Part shown: positions 3,951 to 38,312 of the stretch, piece by piece
How the letters are laid out: every line of letters begins with the position of its first letter
How positions within the stretch are numbered: the stretch's first letter is position 1
Virus record (IMG/VR): IMGVR_UViG_3300028920_001368
Span: 1 to 38,312 of that record
Strand: one strand, 5' to 3'
DNA: 38,312 nt
Origin: a virus
Notes under the pieces: generated by a model
The model's input: the letters and a program-made list of their open reading frames with translations, nothing else
What the model was told of the DNA's origin: nothing
Databases searched by the model: none
Made by a program: the position numbers and the translations under genes

Positions 3951-6900
3951 AGAAGTTATTATAGATAGAATTGATATTCTTCATTATATAAGCGAAGAAA
4001 TACAATGCAAGAAAGTTGGAAGCAATACCTTTCGTGGTGAAATATGTCCGCTATGCAAAGGACATGACTGTTTTACCATTTATCCAGAAAAAAAACAATT
4101 TCATTGTTACCAATGCAGTGAAAGAGGAAATATAATAGATTATGTTATGAAACGAGAAGAATTAGATTTCTTATCTGCATTGAAACAATTGGCAAAAAAA
4201 TCCGGAGTAGAACTTTCAAATTCCAATGCAAATAAAGATTGGTATGAACAAAAACAGAAAATTGAAAAGATTTTTTTTAAAACTGCAAAATATTATCATG
4301 AGAATTTCAAAAAGAATCCTGAAGCTGTAAAAATAATATCTAACCACCGGGCAAGAACCAGCGACACTATGAAAAAAGTTATGTATGGATTAGCAGACGG
4401 TAAACTTCATAATTATCTTATTTCTCTTGGTTATGATGAAAATACTATTTTAGAAAGCGGTTTGTGCCGGAAAAACGATAACGGGAAAATATTTGATTTT
4501 ATTTCAGAGAACAAATTTGTATATCCGGTAGCGGTTAGAAAAGTAATTTCTGATTTTCAAATTAAAGATTATTTTGTAGAGAAAAAAGAAAGAAAAGATT
4601 ATCAATTAGTTTCTTCTAATAAACTTAATGATGCTCTTTTTTACGGACAGGACGGACTATATAAAGATAGCTTCATTTTAGTTGAAGGTCCTGAAGATAG
4701 AATTTCCATATTACAAGCATATCAAGAAATATTAAAAAAATTAACACTTGAAATAAAGGATTGCCAAGATGATATTAAAAAAAAGAAATTACAAAAAAAG
4801 AGAACTGCTTTGGAAAATTCTTTTGTACCACCAGTTGCGATATTGGGTAGTATATCTGAAAAACAATTAAGTTTCATTGACGATTTGTGCAATCATAAAC
4901 GGAAAATTATTTATCTTGCATTTGACCCGGACACACAGGGCGAGAAATATACAAAAAAAATAGTTAACTTATTACTTAACAAAGCGGATATTCGGAAATT
5001 ACTTTGGGATTTTGATAAAGGCGATATTGACGATTTTCTAAAAAAAGCAGAACCGGAAAGCATTTTATCCATTATAGAAAATGCAACTAATATTCTTTAT
5101 TTTTTGATTGATTCTCTGCCAAAAGATTTTGATGAGATACAACAAAACAATCCACACGTTGCAATGGGTTACTATGACCCTTTGATTGATTTGATTTGCA
5201 AGGAGCAGGAAGAAATAATTAAAAATTCTTACATAGATAAGCTTGCCAAGAAAGTAGGACAAACAAACCGGCAAATAAAAGCTCTTGTAATGAAAAGAAT
5301 GGGATTGGTACTATCCGCTGAACCGGAAGAAGAACCGGAAGAGAAAAAAACTATTTTTCGTTGGGAAAAGAATCATCAGTATTGGAAGGATGACGGACAA
5401 AACAAAATGAAATTATCTGATTATACGATTGATATAATTGGGAAAATAGAAATGGAAATTCGAGATAAACGGCAGGTGGTTTACAATGTAATTCTCACAA
5501 ATTCCAAAGGACTGAAATCAAAACCATTGGAGCTTTACCCACAGGATAGAATCACTACAAGAAAACTGAATGAAGTGTGTTCAGGACATCATGAAGGATG
5601 CTATTTCTATGGCAGAGATAATGATTTACTTGAATGCTTGAAATTAGAAGAAGATTCGGCAAAAATTGATTCGATAGTTTGTTATTTCCAAAGATACGGT
5701 TGGATTCGAGAACATCAAATATGGCTATTCAATAATTGCGCTGTTCAGCATGACAAAGTATATGAACCGGATGAAAACGGAATTATTAAAGTCGGGAAAA
5801 TAGGTTTTCAGTCTCAGGGAGTAAGAATTTATTCCGGTGATACACCAAATCTAAATTTACATTTTAAACCAACCAAAAAATGGATTAATGAAGTAATATT
5901 AAATTTTTGGAGTATGTTTGACCATCGAAAAGAACAAAGTATTCCCTATAAATCTTATGCAGGATTTTTTGTATTAGGATTTGTAGGAGCCTGTATTTAT
6001 CTGGATGAGATAGTAAAGCATACACACGCCTTTCCATATATGGCAGTTTGGGGAGAAAGTGAAAGCGGAAAATCTTTTGCTATTCGTTTGCTTGCAAATA
6101 TATTTGGCTTTACCCAAATGGGTGAAAGCTGGGAATCAACTGTAAATTCAATGTCAAAAATGATGGAATATGTTTCTTCTCTTATTGTCTGGTTTGATGA
6201 ATTTAAAAATGAACAAAATAAATCGCATCAAACACAAAAAAAAGAAAATCTTCTTAAAAATTTGTGGACACGAGCCGGAGAGAGCAAAGGAACACTTTCA
6301 GCAAGAGACAGTTTCGAGGTAAACGGAGCAATGTTTCTCACGGGAGAAGATGTTTCCGAGCATAAAGCATTCAGGTCCAGAACGGTAGTAATACAAAAGG
6401 TGAAACCTACTCCCACTGCAACGATAGCTTATTTTTGGTTAGAAGAAAACAGCAAGAATTTATCAAGTATTTTTTTATATCTTATTAAGAAAAAAAACGA
6501 AAAAACGATTAAGAACTTTCTTGATACCTACGATAACCTTGTAAAAAGTATTAATGAAAAAATTGAAGAAAAAGGGAAAAAACGACAAATTGACAGACGA
6601 GCAGTAACTAATCATGCAACAATAGCAACCGGATTCTTTGTTTTCGATGAACTTCAATACAAAGATGAGTTTGTTGATTATGTGGTTGACCATATCATCA
6701 AAGAAAGCGAAGCAAAAGAAGCCGAAGACATTTTATTCAAATTTTTTGAAGATATTGATATTGTTACTTTCAATCTGGATGAAGTGATTCACTTCTTTGA
6801 TGAAAACAGAGTTTTCCTTTGGTATCAAAAACTTTATACTGATTGGATGATAAATACAAAACGAAGCGGACTTTCTCAGTACATTTCCCGGAATGCTTTG

Positions 6901-7956: not shown

Positions 7957-8951
7957 AACACGCTTCATTATTTAGCGGAATTGGTGGATTTGATTTAGCA
8001 GCGGAATGGTGTGGATTTGAAAATATATTTTCCGTAGAAATAGATGAATTTTGCGATAAAGTTTTAAAAAAAAACTTTCCAAATGTAAGGAGATATTATG
8101 ACATTAAAAAATTCAATGGAAGAAAATACAGAGGAGCAATTGACATTCTTTCAGGAGGATTCCCATGCCAGCCATTTAGTGTTGCCGGGAAGCGAAAAGG
8201 CAAAAAAGATGACCGCTTCCTCTGGCAAGAAATGGATAGAGTTATCTCAGAAATTAAACCAAAATGGATTGTTATTGAAAATGTTCAGGGATTACTTACT
8301 ATCGAGCAAGGATTGGTTTTCGAGCAGGTGCTTTCTGACTTGGAAGGTAAAGGATACGAAATGGAATCGTTTGATATTCCGGCTATTGCCGTCAATGCCC
8401 CCCACAAAAGACACCGAATCTGGATTGTTGCCTACTGTAACAGTGAACGGGAATTACAACAGGAAAGGATTAAGCAAAACGAGCGGAGACGGATTGATAA
8501 CAGCAATAAATGCAGTATTACCTACACCAAGAGCTTGCGATTTAGAAGGTGGAACGGTAAAAAATGCAGAATTAAACGGTCAAAGTTTTTCACGCAAAAA
8601 CAAAGGCGGTACTCGATACGGAATAAAATTAAAGGATGCAATTTCATTGCTTCCAACTCCAACACTAAATACTTCAAAAAACTTATCAGAGAGAATCAAT
8701 TGGGATATGAGAGAGAAAAAGTATCATTTAGACGATGTTTTTATGAAACAAATTGGCATAAAAACTGGATTGAGGTTGCAACCGAACTTTGTGGAATGGA
8801 TGATGGGGTTTCCGTTGAATTGGACGGATATAAGATCACCAAAGCAAAACACCGAAGCGAAAGAATAAAATCTTTGGGAAATGCAATTGTTCCACAAGTG
8901 GCTTATCAAATTTTTATGGCAATTAAAAAAGCGGAGGCAAGCAATGAGTAA
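7953..8951 (+). CDS. DNA (cytosine-5-)-methyltransferase
   Basis: A 332-residue C5 methyltransferase. Motif I LFSGIGGFDLA (6-16), motif IV GGFPCQPFS with catalytic C72, motif VI ENV (109-111), motif VIII region PHKRHRIWIVA (150-160) and motif X GNAIVP (309-314) are all present and in order. The variable region between motifs VIII and IX (about 165-280) is unusually basic and low in hydrophobic residues. This same DNA is fully open in the +1 frame (8098-8868), and the odd composition is best explained by double coding. Likely role: protective modification of phage DNA. Confidence 0.92.
   Translation: MKHASLFSGIGGFDLAAEWCGFENIFSVEIDEFCDKVLKKNFPNVRRYYDIKKFNGRKYRGAIDILSGGFPCQPFSVAGKRKGKKDDRFLWQEMDRVISEIKPKWIVIENVQGLLTIEQGLVFEQVLSDLEGKGYEMESFDIPAIAVNAPHKRHRIWIVAYCNSERELQQERIKQNERRRIDNSNKCSITYTKSLRFRRWNGKKCRIKRSKFFTQKQRRYSIRNKIKGCNFIASNSNTKYFKKLIRENQLGYEREKVSFRRCFYETNWHKNWIEVATELCGMDDGVSVELDGYKITKAKHRSERIKSLGNAIVPQVAYQIFMAIKKAEASNE
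8098..8868 (+). CDS. Candidate overprinted gene inside C5 methyltransferase (+1 frame)
   Basis: A 256-codon ORF wholly inside the methyltransferase gene. TAAGGAG lies six bases before ATG 8098, a textbook SD that is also methyltransferase codons. The product has FQEDSHAS at 18-25, LTWKVK near 80-85, three LLPT/VLPTP segments and a C-terminal FVEWMMGFPLNWTD. From memory, many phage proteins of unknown function carry this order (FQEDS..LTWK..PTPT..WVEWLMGFP.GWT). FQEDSHAS is encoded by the bases of catalytic motif SGGFPCQ, and WMMGFP by the bases of the DDGVS segment. What the protein does is unknown. Confidence 0.55.
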   Translation: MTLKNSMEENTEEQLTFFQEDSHASHLVLPGSEKAKKMTASSGKKWIELSQKLNQNGLLLKMFRDYLLSSKDWFSSRCFLTWKVKDTKWNRLIFRLLPSMPPTKDTESGLLPTVTVNGNYNRKGLSKTSGDGLITAINAVLPTPRACDLEGGTVKNAELNGQSFSRKNKGGTRYGIKLKDAISLLPTPTLNTSKNLSERINWDMREKKYHLDDVFMKQIGIKTGLRLQPNFVEWMMGFPLNWTDIRSPKQNTEAKE

Positions 8952-9162
8952 AAAACAACCAATTTTTGAAAATTATTTTAAAAATCCCGAAAAAAAAGAC
9001 CGTTTTTTTGAGAAAAAAGACTCAAAAAAGACAAAAAATGAGCAAAAAACAGAGAATTTTGCTAAAAAAATGAAGATTTCTGAAAAATCAAGACAGTTAA
9101 AAATGGCAAAATATTGCCTTTTTATTCCTCTTTTTTTGCTTAAAAAATTAGCTGTTTGCTAA
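8944..9162 (+). CDS. Small lysine-rich protein
   Basis: A 72-residue strongly basic protein. GGAGG lies six bases before ATG 8944, which overlaps the methyltransferase stop by eight bases. The first 55 residues are almost all K, E, F, N and S; the last 15 (YCLFIPLFLLKKLAVC) are hydrophobic. A longer reading from 8881 has no SD. Function unknown; it could bind nucleic acid or the membrane. Its stop codon is the end of a TTAGC-N5-GCTAA palindrome. Confidence 0.5.
   Translation: MSKKQPIFENYFKNPEKKDRFFEKKDSKKTKNEQKTENFAKKMKISEKSRQLKMAKYCLFIPLFLLKKLAVC
9148..9162. promoter_or_regulatory. Palindrome TTAGC-N5-GCTAA, copy 1
   Basis: TTAGCtgtttGCTAA is a perfect 5+5 palindrome. The same half-sites with the same 5-base spacing occur at 14389-14403 and 15460-15474. 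It lies just upstream of the AT-rich motif cluster, where a regulated promoter or replication control would be plausible. Confidence 0.45.
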
Positions 9163-31485: not shown

Positions 31486-34400
31486 ATGAACGAAAAATAT
31501 TTAAAGGCTAAACAATTATATGAAGAATGGAATGCTCCTGAAAAATTAGCCATTCTTAATGAAGATGAAAAAAAACGATTAGCAAAAGTAAAAGAATATT
31601 TAGAGAATAATAAACCTACCATAGATGAATTTGATAAAGAACGCTATGAAAAAGCAGTTGAATTAAATAGCACATGGAGCGAACCTGGAAATTATCTTCG
31701 CTTAAATCAAGAACAAAAACAAAGATTGACAAAAGTAGAAAAGTATTTGAAAACCCATGAGCAAGCTTATCAAGAATTAACAACACCGGAAAAATTGGCA
31801 ACTGACCAGATGCCACTACAAGAGGGGAATAAAGAAAGCTGGTGGGATAAGGTTACAGGAATATTTAAAAAAAAAAAAGATGAAGAATTAATGAAAGAAG
31901 GAAACTTACAAGTTTCCCCTACAAATAATGAAAACATAGAATTGCCAAAAAAAGATTTTGTGCAGGGAACAAATGTTCCATATCCTGATACAAAAATTAA
32001 ACTGAAAGAAGAAAAGCCAAACATTCTAAAATCTTTGAAAAGCTCAGCTTATAATATTGTTGGTGGAACTTATGGATTAGGACAAATGGCAATTGATGGA
32101 ATCTATACAATTGGCGCAATTCCGCAAAATATATTAGCAAAAACTTTTAATATTGAAGAATTAGAAGCGAATCCAGAAAAGCTTTATGCTACTTTCCCCG
32201 TAATAAAAAAAGCTATAGATACAGCGTTGCCAGCAAATCAAGTATTAGAATCAGCAAAAAAAAATAGTGCTGTTCCATATTTTCAAAATGATTTAAAAGG
32301 ATTTTTAAAAGAAAAAGACTATTCTAATTTTGCCAAATTATTAGGCTATCAAGTACTTGAAAATTTACCTCAGCAAGCAATTATATGGGGAACTGCAATT
32401 GCTACCGGAAACCCAACCATCGGGACATTAACCATTAGCGGACAGGCAGCAGGTTCAAAATATATGACTATCAATAAAGATGTACGTGATTATAATAAAT
32501 TTGCAAATGCAGTTTCTACGGGAATGACTGAATATTTAACAGAAACTTATTTAGGTACTGTTCCTATATTGAAAGATTTAATGAAAGATAGGACAGGAAT
32601 TTTCAAACAAGGTTTTAGAGCAGCAATTAAAGATTATCTGAAAACTACAGGAAAAGCATTTACCGAAGAAGGACTTGAAGAAGCTGTTGCACAAATATCT
32701 GAAAACTTGATTGATATATTTTCCAATAATAGAGATGAATCCGGGAATTTACCTGGTGTATTTGACGGAGTTTTTGACGCTACATTAGTTGGAAGTATGA
32801 CAGGTGGTATTCTTGGAGCAAGCGGAACGGCTGTTAACCGATTCAATTCTAAACAAAGATTGAATAATCCGGTTATCGAAAAAGATAATCAGATTAAGAA
32901 CATTCCTGAAGAAGAAACACCACGTCAGCAAGCGGAAACAAAAGAAAACACCCCGTCAAGTAAACTTGACACCCCTCTACAAGAGGGGAATGAAAAACAA
33001 CCGCTTTACAAAATTGATGATAAAGAATATTCCAAAGAAGATTTTTTGCAGGAAATTGAGAAAATGGAAAATGATACTCCACCGATTACCATAGAAAATG
33101 ACGATGAAACAACAAAATTAGTTTATGATATGGTGAAAGGGAAGGAAAAAAGTAAAAAAACAAAAGCTAAAATAATTGATTTTGGCGAAAAAGTTTTAGG
33201 TATAGGTGATTTTGACCAAAAAATTGAACAATATGAAGCCATGCTTGAACAAAAAGGAAATAATGAACAAATAAAAGAATATTCGGTTTTTCAAAAAAGC
33301 TTACAGATATTACAGGAAAATGAGGATATACCAGAGGTATCTCAATTTTATCAATCTATAGAAAAATTCCCTTCTGATTTTAACACTATTTCAAAATTCA
33401 TAAAGATAATAAACGAAACCGCTGAAATTGTCAGAAATGCAAATAAAGGCGAAACAATACAACCATCTAAAGCAACCGTAAATGAGACAAAAGAATTACA
33501 AGAAATTATATACCATTTGCGTAATGAATTTGATTTAAGATACAAAAATAATCCAAAAGATAAAAGGCTTCCAATTATTGAAGATATTTTAGAACGACTT
33601 GACGATTTACAACGAAATGATGCACAAATTCCAAGAAGATTTGATATGTCTTTAGAAGAATATGCAAACAAATTAAAACCGACTTCCATATCTCAGCCAG
33701 AATCAACGAAAAAAGAAAAAGAAAGTAATAAGACTAAAAAGAAATTATCTGCCGAGAAAAACAACAAATCAAAGCCAAAATATGTAAAAACGTCAAACGG
33801 AGTATTCCAAGTAGAAAAAGAAACTGAAAACCGCTGGATTTTCACAAATGGAACGTTTGCCAACAAAAAAGCAAAAGGAAATTATGAAACAAATGAAGAA
33901 GCATATCGAAGAAGCAAAAACAGACGAGGAATAAAACGAACTAATAATACCAATCGAATTTCTTTAAAGAAAAAGAATATTGATGAGTTGCGAACTCCAT
34001 TTTTATCTCATTTTCTTTCTACCGGAATGCAAACGAATGATATTGATTTACAAAATTACATTGCCGGGATTATTCCCCTGTATAACAAAGAAGGTGTTGG
34101 ATTAGATAAAATTATTCATGAATTAGATAGGTTTTTCCCAGATTTAGACCAAGCTGTTCAAGGAGATATTGAAGCTTATAAAGATGGTTTGCTTGATGAT
34201 ATTAATCGTGTTTACAATTTAAAAGACAGAACTTGGGATGAAGAAGATATTGAATACATGAAAGGAATGGCAGAACAGCAACGGATTGACGAGGAAAACG
34301 AAAAAAAGAAACAAGACCTTTTAAAACAAACGAAAGAAATGATTGGTTCTGAATTTGATTTGAATGATAAGGTTACATGGGTTGATAAGGAATTTGGCGA

Positions 34401-37400
34401 AACTCATACCGGAATTGTGATTGAAAAAAATAATGATGGCGATGTTCGCATTCAAAATGATATTTCGCTACAAGTAGATGATTTTGAAACTCTTCCTGTT
34501 TTGAAAGTAGAAAAAGCGACTAAAGAAGAAGTGAAGGAGAAAAAGAAAGAAGCAAATATTAATCCTGAGCAAGAAGAGTATATTCCCCGTGATGATTGGG
34601 AGAATAATTTGATGAAAGCACGGGAATATGCTAAAAATTTATTATCGAGAGAAGAATTAGATATATTGGATTGGACAGATAAGGAAAATATAGTCGCTGC
34701 TATAAAAAACAAATTGAAAAAATCAAATGACCAATTTGTTGATGATAACAAAATGGAAGAAAAAGACCAGAATACACCGGAGCCAGACGATAAAAACAAG
34801 TTCGTGAAAAAAGGCGAGACATTAAATTTACTTGATACCCGAACTGAAGCTGAAAAAAAATATGATAGAGAATGGAGAGGATTAGAGCAAGGAGAAATAT
34901 TAGATACTCCGAAACAAACACCCCGTCCGCAAGCGGACACCCCTCTATCAGAGGGGAATTTAAAAAAAGACAGAGAGCTTACTGAAGCTGAATACATTGC
35001 AAAATACTCAAAGGGAAAACCTTTAAGTAAAGAATTATTGAAAGAAATTAAAGATAATTATGATAAACTCCATGATAAAAATGCACAATTAGATTTACTT
35101 GGTGAATTTGATAAAGATATTACAGAGCAAGATGAATTGTTCGATGAGAAAAAACCGCAAACATTAGCAACTTATTTAGAAAAGAAAATATTGAATGGCG
35201 AAATAACAGATAACCCAAAATTAGATAAAGCTGTAAGTGAATATCTTGGTGGAACAAAAGCAGAAGGCAAATATACTTCTCAAGATGCTTATAATGCAAT
35301 AGAAACCGCAGTAAATTCTATTTTATCAAAGGAAGAATATTCTATTTTATCTATTCCCGTGAAAGATGCATTAGCGATTATTGATAATTTAATGAGTAAA
35401 TTGCCGACACAAACCAATCGAACGCAGGAAAAGTCTGAACTTCAACAATTTAGCACTCCTCCCCAAATAGCATATTTAGCGGCAAAAGCATTGCAAGTAA
35501 ACAAGAACGACATAATATTAGAACCAAGCGCAGGAAATGGCGGATTAATTGCAATGCTGAAACCATTTGTAAAAATGATTTATGCTAATGAAATAGATAC
35601 TAACAGAGAAAAGAATTTACAAGAGCTTGGATTTAAAACAAGCAATGTAGATGCAATGCAATTGAATAATTTATTGCCGGATGCAATTAAACCCACAGCC
35701 ATAATTATGAATCCACCTTTTAGCAGTCAATTAGGAATTTCCCAAAACAGAAATCAAGTAGGGTACAGACATTTATTACAAGCATTAGCAAGATTAGAAA
35801 AAGGTGGAAGATTGGTTGCTATACTTGGAGAAGGAAGCGCATGGGGAAAACCTAAAGCAATGGAATTTTGGAATCGGCATTTTAAGAATGGAGATTATTA
35901 TTTACGAGCCAATATTGGAATTGATGGAAGCGAATATAGAAAATACGGAACGAATTTTGGTGTGCAACTTGTAATTATAGATAAATTATCTAAGACAGGA
36001 GATATTTTAAAAAGTAGAGACGGAAAAATTGAAAATTATTCTCCCGTATTAATAGGAGAATACAAAAGTATTGAGGAGGCTTTAAATGACATCGAAGCAA
36101 GAATCCCAAAAAGAACACAGCAAGATAATCGCAAAAATGAGAGACCTACTTCTGGAAATACAAGAGACAGAGGAAATAGCACCGGAAGCAATACCAGTGA
36201 TAGGATACCCATACGACCTGGAGGACGTACATCAGTGGACATACAACGAGAATCCGACAACGATACTAAAGGAAATAAACCGACTATACCCGGAAATCGT
36301 GAAGAAACTAAAAAACCAAACAACGACATTAACCAACGAGGAGAAAATAGAGATAGCAGGAATATTGGTGGAAATGTTTCTAATGTTGAAAAATTAGAAA
36401 TACAAAAAAAAATAAATGAAAATGAATCCGGTGGATATGTAGATTATTTTCCTGTAAAATTATCACAGGGGAAAAAGCATCCGGGAAAAATAGTAGAAAG
36501 CTCATCGTTATCAGCGGTAAAACCTCCCGATATTACTTACAAACCGTTATTACCCAAATCAACAATAGAAAGCGGTTCAATCAGCGATATTCAATTAGAA
36601 GCAATAACATACGCAGGGCAACGTCATTCAATGTTATTGCCAAATGGCAAGAGAGCAGGATTTTTTACGGGGGACGGCACAGGAATTGGAAAAGGAAGAA
36701 CACTTGCAGGGATTATTTTGGACAACTATAATCAAGGAAGAAAAAAAGCTTTATGGTTATCTGTTTCAAGAGATTTAGAAGCAGCGTCAAAAGATGATTT
36801 AGAAAGCATTGGAGCAAAACATATTCCAATTACATTTTTAGGCAATTACGATAAAAATATTGCTATAGATTTACCCGAAGGTGTTATTTTTTCCACTTAT
36901 AACACATTTATTCGAGGAATAAAAAATTATAAAGAATCAAGAGTTAAGCAAATAGTGGAATGGTTAGGAAATGATGGTGTTATCATCATGGATGAAGCTC
37001 ACAAACAAAAAAATCTTTTTGCAGGGGCAAGAGGTGAGCCAACCCAAACGGGATTATCTTGTCAAATGCTTGATGATAAATTACCTAAAGCAAGAATTGT
37101 ATATTCCAGCGCAACCGGAGCAACAAATATTCAAGACATAGGTTATGCAACCAGATTAGGATTGTGGGGCGAAGGTAGTCCCTTTAACGATTACCTTGAT
37201 TTTCTAAATAACATTGGCAACAGCGGACTTGGTGGATTAGAAATGATTTCCAGAGACATGAAGTCTTTGGGAATGTATTGTTCCAGAAGAATTAGTTATG
37301 AAGGAGTTGAATACAGAGAAACCATTCACGAACTTACTCCCAAACAAATAGAAATGTACAACGTAACCGCTAACGCATGGAGAGTAATTTTAGAAAATAT

Positions 37401-38312
37401 GAGTAATGTTATAACTGAAGTAATTGGTAGCGAGAAAAAAGGAACATTTTCAAAAGCAATTACAGCATATTGGGGCGCTCATCAAAGGTTTTATAAATCT
37501 TTCATAACAGCTCTAAAAGTACCTACAGCAATAAAAAAAATAGAATCCGAATTAAACAAAGGTCATTCTGTTGTACTATCTTTGCGTAAAACAAACGAAA
37601 CCGCTGTTACACATTCCGTAAGCAAGGCAATTCAAAACAAAGAGGATTTATCTGAAATAGATTTATCACCAAGAGAAATTATCGCACAATTTATTTTACA
37701 TTCCTTTCCTATTAATGCAGTAAGACAAGTACCCGGACCTAACGACAAGCTAATTGAAGAAATTATTCCTGACGTAATAGATAAAGAAGCACTTGCAAAA
37801 AGACAAGAATTATTAGACAGTTTGTCTAAAATAGATTTACCTGAAAATCCTTTGGACCAGATTATTGATTATTTTGAATTATACTCCTTACAAAAAAATG
37901 ATTCTACATTAAGAGTAGCTGAAATTACAGGAAGAAGTAAACGCATGGTAAAAGAAATTGCGAAAAATATCAATGGTAAATATGATTTTACCGGAAAAGT
38001 AGAATATAAATATCGCAAAGCCAAAGGAATTTCAAACAATAAAAAGAATTTGCATGAAATGGAACAATTTCAAAGCGGAAAAAAACGAATAGCCATTATT
38101 AGCGCAGCAGGTAGCACCGGAATAAGTTTACACTCTGATTTACGAGCAAAGAATCAGCAAAGAAGAGTTCACATTACCTTAGAATTGGATTGGAGCGCAG
38201 ATAATCAAATACAAGATTTTGGAAGAACACACAGAAGCAATCAAAAGCAACCGCCAATCTTTGACTTATTAGGCAGCAATATTGGTGGAGAAAAAAGATT
38301 TTTATCCACTAT
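31486..38312 (+). CDS. Giant DarB-like polyvalent protein: virion region, N6-adenine methyltransferase, strawberry-notch helicase (3' end cut)
   Basis: The frame is open from ATG 31486 to the window edge (2275 codons so far). In order: tandem helical repeats (about 1-105); a hydrophobic Gly/Ala-rich region (about 185-450) like those of ejected virion proteins; a long helical/low-complexity middle; an N6-adenine methyltransferase with EPSAGNG (1346-1352) and NPPF (1409-1412); a disordered linker (about 1535-1635) that also holds the +1 ORF 36086-36397; and an SF2 helicase of strawberry-notch type with GDGTGIGKG (1729-1737), DEAH (1836-1839), SSATGAT (1874-1880) and DFGRTHRSNQ (2244-2253). Methyltransferase plus Sno helicase in a >2200-residue virion protein is the plan of P1 DarB, which is co-injected with DNA and protects against type I restriction. 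Dispersed palindromes are translated at about 105-116, 488-502 and 1145-1159. Confidence 0.85.
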   Translation, partial: MNEKYLKAKQLYEEWNAPEKLAILNEDEKKRLAKVKEYLENNKPTIDEFDKERYEKAVELNSTWSEPGNYLRLNQEQKQRLTKVEKYLKTHEQAYQELTTPEKLATDQMPLQEGNKESWWDKVTGIFKKKKDEELMKEGNLQVSPTNNENIELPKKDFVQGTNVPYPDTKIKLKEEKPNILKSLKSSAYNIVGGTYGLGQMAIDGIYTIGAIPQNILAKTFNIEELEANPEKLYATFPVIKKAIDTALPANQVLESAKKNSAVPYFQNDLKGFLKEKDYSNFAKLLGYQVLENLPQQAIIWGTAIATGNPTIGTLTISGQAAGSKYMTINKDVRDYNKFANAVSTGMTEYLTETYLGTVPILKDLMKDRTGIFKQGFRAAIKDYLKTTGKAFTEEGLEEAVAQISENLIDIFSNNRDESGNLPGVFDGVFDATLVGSMTGGILGASGTAVNRFNSKQRLNNPVIEKDNQIKNIPEEETPRQQAETKENTPSSKLDTPLQEGNEKQPLYKIDDKEYSKEDFLQEIEKMENDTPPITIENDDETTKLVYDMVKGKEKSKKTKAKIIDFGEKVLGIGDFDQKIEQYEAMLEQKGNNEQIKEYSVFQKSLQILQENEDIPEVSQFYQSIEKFPSDFNTISKFIKIINETAEIVRNANKGETIQPSKATVNETKELQEIIYHLRNEFDLRYKNNPKDKRLPIIEDILERLDDLQRNDAQIPRRFDMSLEEYANKLKPTSISQPESTKKEKESNKTKKKLSAEKNNKSKPKYVKTSNGVFQVEKETENRWIFTNGTFANKKAKGNYETNEEAYRRSKNRRGIKRTNNTNRISLKKKNIDELRTPFLSHFLSTGMQTNDIDLQNYIAGIIPLYNKEGVGLDKIIHELDRFFPDLDQAVQGDIEAYKDGLLDDINRVYNLKDRTWDEEDIEYMKGMAEQQRIDEENEKKKQDLLKQTKEMIGSEFDLNDKVTWVDKEFGETHTGIVIEKNNDGDVRIQNDISLQVDDFETLPVLKVEKATKEEVKEKKKEANINPEQEEYIPRDDWENNLMKAREYAKNLLSREELDILDWTDKENIVAAIKNKLKKSNDQFVDDNKMEEKDQNTPEPDDKNKFVKKGETLNLLDTRTEAEKKYDREWRGLEQGEILDTPKQTPRPQADTPLSEGNLKKDRELTEAEYIAKYSKGKPLSKELLKEIKDNYDKLHDKNAQLDLLGEFDKDITEQDELFDEKKPQTLATYLEKKILNGEITDNPKLDKAVSEYLGGTKAEGKYTSQDAYNAIETAVNSILSKEEYSILSIPVKDALAIIDNLMSKLPTQTNRTQEKSELQQFSTPPQIAYLAAKALQVNKNDIILEPSAGNGGLIAMLKPFVKMIYANEIDTNREKNLQELGFKTSNVDAMQLNNLLPDAIKPTAIIMNPPFSSQLGISQNRNQVGYRHLLQALARLEKGGRLVAILGEGSAWGKPKAMEFWNRHFKNGDYYLRANIGIDGSEYRKYGTNFGVQLVIIDKLSKTGDILKSRDGKIENYSPVLIGEYKSIEEALNDIEARIPKRTQQDNRKNERPTSGNTRDRGNSTGSNTSDRIPIRPGGRTSVDIQRESDNDTKGNKPTIPGNREETKKPNNDINQRGENRDSRNIGGNVSNVEKLEIQKKINENESGGYVDYFPVKLSQGKKHPGKIVESSSLSAVKPPDITYKPLLPKSTIESGSISDIQLEAITYAGQRHSMLLPNGKRAGFFTGDGTGIGKGRTLAGIILDNYNQGRKKALWLSVSRDLEAASKDDLESIGAKHIPITFLGNYDKNIAIDLPEGVIFSTYNTFIRGIKNYKESRVKQIVEWLGNDGVIIMDEAHKQKNLFAGARGEPTQTGLSCQMLDDKLPKARIVYSSATGATNIQDIGYATRLGLWGEGSPFNDYLDFLNNIGNSGLGGLEMISRDMKSLGMYCSRRISYEGVEYRETIHELTPKQIEMYNVTANAWRVILENMSNVITEVIGSEKKGTFSKAITAYWGAHQRFYKSFITALKVPTAIKKIESELNKGHSVVLSLRKTNETAVTHSVSKAIQNKEDLSEIDLSPREIIAQFILHSFPINAVRQVPGPNDKLIEEIIPDVIDKEALAKRQELLDSLSKIDLPENPLDQIIDYFELYSLQKNDSTLRVAEITGRSKRMVKEIAKNINGKYDFTGKVEYKYRKAKGISNNKKNLHEMEQFQSGKKRIAIISAAGSTGISLHSDLRAKNQQRRVHITLELDWSADNQIQDFGRTHRSNQKQPPIFDLLGSNIGGEKRFLST
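31797..31830 (+). repeat. Dispersed palindromes III plus half of I, in coding sequence
   Basis: GGCAACTGACCAGATGCC, matching the type III copy at 23404, runs directly into CTACAAGAGGGGAAT, the end of type I. Translated in frame as ATDQMPLQEGN; the 23381 mini-ORF reads ATDQLP from the same element. Confidence 0.65.
32948..32992 (+). repeat. Dispersed palindrome type I, in-frame in giant gene
   Basis: ACACCCCG-TCAAGTaaACTTGA-CACCCCTCTacAAGAGGGGAAT. The first stem is TCAAGT/ACTTGA, unlike TCCGC/GCGGA elsewhere but fully paired. Translated as NTPSSKLDTPLQEGN in a low-complexity linker. Confidence 0.8.
34918..34960 (+). repeat. Dispersed palindrome type I, in-frame in giant gene
   Basis: ACACCCCG-TCCGCaaGCGGA-CACCCCTCTatcAGAGGGGAATT, almost identical to the intergenic copy at 23430. 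Translated as TPRPQADTPLSEGN in a linker before the methyltransferase region. Confidence 0.8.
36086..36397 (+). CDS. Candidate overprinted gene inside DarB-like gene (+1 frame)
   Basis: A 103-codon ORF inside the giant gene with GAGGAGG six bases before ATG 36086, one of the best SD sites in the window. The product looks like a folded, amphipathic-helical protein (IIAKMRDLLLEIQETEEIAP; VHQWTYNENPTTILKEINRL; EEKIEIAGILVEMFLMLKN). Over the same bases the giant protein is a low-complexity linker rich in R, N, G, T, D and S. That is the pattern expected when a new frame constrains DNA over a tolerant linker. Codon use differs from neighbours (ATA dominates isoleucine, ATT absent). Function unknown. 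Confidence 0.55.
   Translation: MTSKQESQKEHSKIIAKMRDLLLEIQETEEIAPEAIPVIGYPYDLEDVHQWTYNENPTTILKEINRLYPEIVKKLKNQTTTLTNEEKIEIAGILVEMFLMLKN

Follow-up and report, generated by a model that had tools for sequence, protein, structure and literature searches.

A second, separately initiated gene is almost certainly encoded in the +1 frame of the linker between the methyltransferase (MTase) and helicase domains of a giant phage gene, and the copy carried by the DNA studied here is itself very likely a real nested gene. As judged by comparison of sequences, the same nested gene is present at the same spot in more than 100 related phages and plasmids, where it is under selection of its own; across phages, plasmids and prophages of several bacterial phyla, it has its own Shine-Dalgarno (SD) sequence and ATG, its own stop codon and its own purifying selection. 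The DNA that we analyzed (hereinafter, the window) is a 38,312-base virus record, with ends classed by IMG/VR, in which a primase, a terminase, a portal and a major head protein are encoded upstream of the giant gene. The features considered are the following.

31486..38310 (+): giant polyvalent gene that encloses the nested one, 2275 codons or more, truncated at the contig end
35485..35823 (+): adenine-methyltransferase core, located 5' of the nested gene (MTS, NPPF motif; Pfam PF05175, E 0.003; PHROG DNA methyltransferase, 3.7e-14)
36073..36079 (+): Shine-Dalgarno GAGGAGG of the nested gene, read from the sequence; aligned with it is GAAGAGG in L177, the closest relative
36080..36435 (+): polar frame-0 linker of the giant protein, hydrophobic-poor by sequence composition, read across the nested gene
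36083..36085 (+): nested-frame TAA immediately 5' of the ATG, read from the sequence; the open stretch starts at the ATG
36086..36397 (+): putative nested +1-frame gene, 103 aa, stop TAG, pI 4.9, predicted helical, with positional homologs in relatives
36475..37362 (+): strawberry-notch-type NTPase (AAA_34), downstream of the nested gene (Pfam PF13872, E 2.7e-109)
37906..38310 (+): C-terminal domain of the strawberry-notch helicase, truncated at the contig end (Pfam PF13871, E 4.5e-48)

The enclosing gene is DarB-like and has the makeup of a polyvalent MTase-helicase dyad, that is, an NPPF MTase fused to a SWI2/SNF2 (strawberry-notch) ATPase within a giant phage protein. Two similar short repeats, LNEDEKKRLAKVKEYLENN and LNQEQKQRLTKVEKYLKTH, are found at the N-terminus of this protein (window positions 31486-31800).

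The preliminary description had reported a 103-codon +1 ORF, led by the SD GAGGAGG with 6-base spacing to an ATG, between the methyltransferase and the helicase. Direct reading of 36086-36397 confirms this ORF and its start (ATG at 36086-36088, separated from the SD by the spacer CTTTAA), and the domain matches upstream (PF05175 and the PHROG MTase) and downstream (the PF13872 NTPase) bear out its position. Because a +1-frame TAA abuts the ATG, the nested frame is not merely open from upstream, and this TAA also speaks against fusion to the MTase side by frameshifting. The odd composition ascribed to the giant frame over the overlap was likewise recovered, this stretch being a polar linker with a hydrophobic fraction of 0.12, compared to 0.36 in the nested frame. 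The hydrophobic patterning claimed for the nested protein, however, has no evidential value and was discarded, given that synonymous-codon reshuffles equal or exceed it (0.40 vs. 0.36 observed, P = 0.88). A 97-aa ORF on the minus strand (36036-36329) had no family match and was treated as a by-product.

Judged alone, the window ORF is mildly unusual (P 0.01-0.08), and it is the comparison with relatives that makes the locus compelling. In the window alone, the chance probability of 103 open codons was P = 0.055-0.07 locally, that of a +1 ORF of such length anywhere in the giant gene was P = 0.08, and that of a linker +1 ORF with an SD and 85 codons or more was P = 0.01; the nested-frame codon-usage score gave P = 0.02-0.03.

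Direct searches of the collections consulted with the window ORF or the MTase-helicase segment yielded no close relatives of the window DNA, and distant ones, about 34-51% identical, were therefore reached through the helicase among viral contigs, plasmids and genomes. We identified 147 distinct MTase-helicase fusions, of which 123 had a linker of at least 250 nt and 24 had a short linker. Nearly all long-linker relatives carry a +1 ORF of about 100-160 codons in this linker. This ORF starts directly past the MTase domain, at the frame-0 motif LLEGI(R/K)(N/D)xR, with the ATG formed by NAT|G, and stops about 40-80 nt 5' of the helicase; the window ORF occupies the same place and the same +1 frame. 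An SD-led +1 ORF of at least 85 codons was present in 108 of the 123 long-linker fusions, compared to 27.6 expected when synonymous codons were reshuffled with the amino acids of the giant protein and its codon usage held, whereas such ORFs were found in the +2 frame of none of the 123 (0.1 expected) and in none of the 24 short-linker fusions. Loci with nested ORFs span 36% to 70% G+C; plasmids of Methylotuvimicrobium alcaliphilum 20Z and Methylomonas sp. LL1 are among the nested-positive carriers. The nested start was ATG in 87 of 92 cases and was preceded by an SD of at least 4 bases in 82 of 92, although the rule for picking starts itself favored ATG, an SD and the frame-0 motif. In 58 of 77 loci, the +1 frame is closed at most 10 codons upstream of the ATG. 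Nested-positive giant genes had a median of 3746 open codons (the smallest complete one, 1976), vs. a median of 1486 for short-linker genes. The alphaproteobacterial MTase-helicase genes (most of L042-L108), with about 1490 codons, have a linker of mostly about 72 nt and no nested gene. In Acinetobacter phage MD-2021a (L003), the linker contained no long ORF.

Third-codon positions normally change fastest. To compare change in the overlap with change in the flanks, we aligned the giant frame in close pairs of relatives. Frame-0 third-position change was significantly less frequent in the overlap in L004/L063 (0.046 vs. 0.282 in the flanks, p = 1.6e-9), L030/L005 (0.065 vs. 0.471, p = 1e-18), L115/L116 (0 vs. 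0.085, p = 1e-4) and L128/L121 (0.217 vs. 0.507, p = 4e-9); in L032/L036 it was 15% vs. 53%, and in L027/L014 the difference was borderline only (p = 0.06). Frame-0 first positions, which are the wobble sites of the nested frame, changed two- to three-fold faster in the overlap, and in sliding windows along the giant genes the reversal was confined to the overlap, save for one strongly diverged stretch in one pair. When changes were counted in the nested frame instead, they were third-position heavy, as in an ordinary gene, and nested identity exceeded frame-0 identity across the same bases in all 14 of the 14 pairs. By this comparison, conservation is stronger in the nested frame than in the giant frame, whose linker is the relaxed partner.

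The nested proteins form a recognizable family. An iterated profile retrieved 92 ORFs at E<1e-3 among 25,639 six-frame ORFs from 177 sequences, all of them in the same strand, frame and linker; among the first 36 profile matches, 16 lay outside the training set. The family motif is N..PLN..A...L......PDP..LY.LQL..W.LE, followed by P..A...L and then by an A..LL..L helix. These proteins are acidic (median pI 4.96), with a median length of 120 aa, and 40% of their residues are hydrophobic, compared to 20% in the giant frame. No match common to the family was found in Pfam, NCBIfam, PHROGs or PDB sequences, and the weak matches of single proteins to IntS11_C, PARG, GatB_Yqey, CBM77 and phrog_5786 were dropped because they were not family-wide; the family is missing from these libraries because it is written inside another gene. 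The AlphaFold model of the main family (71 sequences) is mainly helical, with pLDDT 87.8 and pTM 0.80. Structure searches with this model gave no clear match (best Foldseek E 1.1-1.5; best VIA Z 3.2), a result with which a known fold is still compatible.

The window belongs to a clade with L177 (helicase identity 51%), L178, L109, L110 and L112, every member of which has a +1 ORF between the MTase and the helicase. At the aligned spot, L177 reads GAAGAGG CATTAA ATG, with TIEEALN in frame 0, and the window reads GAGGAGG CTTTAA ATG, with SIEEALN. When each member was left out of the clade profile in turn, L112 (E 4e-7), L109 (4e-6) and L178 (6e-6) were recovered, L177 was recovered weakly (0.011), and L110 had E 1. 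The clade profile weakly resembles the main family (hhalign E 7e-4, probability 26%). The window ORF itself ranked 642 against the profile of its own clade (E 970) and had no match to the main family profile at E 100 (hhalign probability 0.2%). Its AlphaFold model is of moderate quality (pLDDT 69.6), and the predicted helices, of 10, 11, 8 and 19 residues, come in the same order as those of the main family, with 11, 11, 9 and 19. Because position and start context are shared but the amino acids are too diverged, we consider the window ORF to be a positional homolog, identified by position, frame, start context and ends and not proven by sequence, that is very probably functional. The linker is longer in L110/L111 (about 4051-4395), with an additional segment, and a wide gap separates the nested ORF from the helicase downstream.

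The expectation of the preliminary description that relatives would keep the ORF, the SD and the amino acids, with frame-0 synonymous sites depleted there alone, thus holds at the homologous locus, where third-position change in close pairs of relatives falls from 28% to 5% and from 47% to 6.5% in the overlap. For the window's own copy it holds in part: the ORF, the SD and ATG, and the position recur in L177, L178, L109 and L112, but the amino acid similarity of the window ORF is not significant.

A second nested gene, apparently unrelated in sequence to the main family, occurs in Bacteroides phage BS-TP4 (L002, about 8721-9066) and its relatives L271-L279, in which the MTase-helicase linker encodes a +1-frame protein beginning MEQKYYVA; the giant gene of BS-TP4 is annotated only as a hypothetical protein. 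Third-position change was 6% vs. 59% in L002/L279 (p = 1.5e-27) and 0 vs. 26% in L271/L274 (p = 1e-12), and in several more distant Bacteroides-phage pairs the drop was not significant. No homology was seen between the window ORF and this protein.

We further surveyed about 1,400 genomes for copies of the nested protein. Copies were found in 16 of 251 Methylococcales genomes, in 2 of 391 genomes of the Bacillota class of L035 and in 2 of 398 in a Pseudomonadota sample, and those checked in these three groups lay inside a giant gene, with the exception of the L250 remnant. In Thermodesulfobacteriota, the phylum of L032 (Syntrophobacteraceae), 18 of 345 genomes had matches, and at 12 loci on chromosomes of this phylum (L255, L256, L258, L259 and L261-L268), the gene is free-standing, with neither MTase nor helicase nearby. 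The existence of such homologs indicates that the nested frame codes for a protein. The standalone genes often share a few bases with the gene upstream, and that of L262 is fused to a NUDIX domain; their neighbors include NUDIX, Ppx/GppA, histidine kinase and cytochrome genes, a variety that points to no single partner. They had no match to curated families, show ordinary third-position-heavy change and form one clade (SH-aLRT 99, in an unrooted tree built from few columns). Three other loci are escaped cassettes. L250 retains the last 39 MTase residues and an intact nested ORF, the remaining MTase and the helicase being lost; in L257 and L260, where both domains are lost, the intact nested ORF is accompanied by a frame-0 remnant resembling a linker. 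In the same unrooted tree of few columns, the three branch at separate points within the nested diversity.

As to function, we envisage that ribosomes would initiate internally on the giant mRNA, and that the producing cell would make a small, acidic, helical protein concurrently with the giant one and separate from it. In that cell, the nested protein could act as an inhibitor or a chaperone by binding the giant protein, whose methylase and ATPase would be kept inactive or packageable until delivery with the DNA. Because the nested gene accompanies the giant versions and is not found in the smaller MTase-helicases, we take such binding to be the most likely role, and we propose this partner or inhibitor function tentatively. 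The suggestion in the preliminary description of a partner produced separately from the virion protein is thus plausible. A more specific version, which we regard as unlikely but worth stating, is that the nested gene is the immunity or inhibitor half of an injected giant effector, inseparable from it because it lies within the effector's gene, and that bacteria captured the inhibitor as an orphan that protects against incoming phages and plasmids equipped with the giant protein.

The nested frame might instead encode an independent effector, such as an acidic DNA mimic or another anti-defense protein, which would occupy the locus to save space and leave the giant protein unaffected. The acidity of the family and the persistence of free-standing chromosomal copies and escaped cassettes in the absence of the giant gene are compatible with such a role, but in the phages and plasmids seen, the nested gene is always tied to giant MTase-helicase genes, curated families offer no match, and a purely anti-host factor would not be expected to stay on chromosomes; we hold this to be rather improbable. 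Still less credible, indeed hardly tenable, is the notion that the signal reflects a conserved nucleic-acid element or the product of a programmed frameshift and not an internally initiated gene. RNA structure alone could impose frame-0 synonymous constraint, but the constraint observed follows the codon phase of the +1 frame, the nested proteins are conserved in amino acids, length and fold, and standalone ORFs encode the same protein; a programmed frameshift was rejected because the ATG has a closed +1 frame 5' of it in the 58 of 77 loci noted above and, in the window, a TAA directly abutting it.

Another alternative concerns the window alone, where the +1 ORF could be a chance or decaying leftover of a nested gene that functions in relatives and was lost in this lineage. 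Such a loss would fit with amino acids that show no significant similarity to any nested protein, with a length that by itself has P 0.05-0.08, and with the lack of the ORF, by the same criteria, in certain long-linker relatives. It is, however, difficult to reconcile with the strong, ideally spaced SD (P 0.01), the nested-frame codon usage (P 0.02-0.03), the matching start context, frame and end in L177, the closest relative, and the shared order of predicted helices (10/11/8/19 vs. 11/11/9/19), and we accordingly consider loss in the window improbable. The nested genes make up a widespread protein family, for which long overprinting on the same strand is unusually well supported among bacteria and their viruses, and their product is a concrete candidate regulator of the antirestriction giants delivered together with phage and plasmid DNA.

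We found no description of the nested gene in the literature searched, which left out most subscription papers. Polyvalent proteins with a DNA methylase-helicase dyad, including a strawberry-notch example from Methylomonas, have been described (Iyer et al. 2017, PMC5512222), and they resemble the enclosing protein in that a giant protein of a phage or plasmid joins an NPPF adenine MTase to a strawberry-notch SWI2/SNF2 ATPase. In the text of that paper, the word 'overlap' is absent and 'frame' appears once, in reference to neighboring ORFs, none of them nested; the Methylomonas plasmid records that we retrieved have no nested CDS annotated. DarB of phage P1 is similar in being a virion-borne MTase-helicase antirestriction protein, but a search of darB for a nested homolog found none, and P1 DarB was rejected as a carrier. 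In the Rpn genes-within-genes, an internal start in the gene of a larger nucleic-acid enzyme yields a small protein that inhibits the large one (PMC10327210), which may offer a parallel for the inhibitor role, although RpnS is in frame with RpnL and corresponds to its C-terminal domain, whereas the nested protein is read in another frame and is unrelated to the giant protein in sequence. In the overprinted genes of viruses, one stretch of DNA encodes two proteins in different frames (reviewed in PMC8227390); the case described here differs in that the nested protein appears to be the conserved, folded one of the two, is spread over several phyla and has free-standing homologs.
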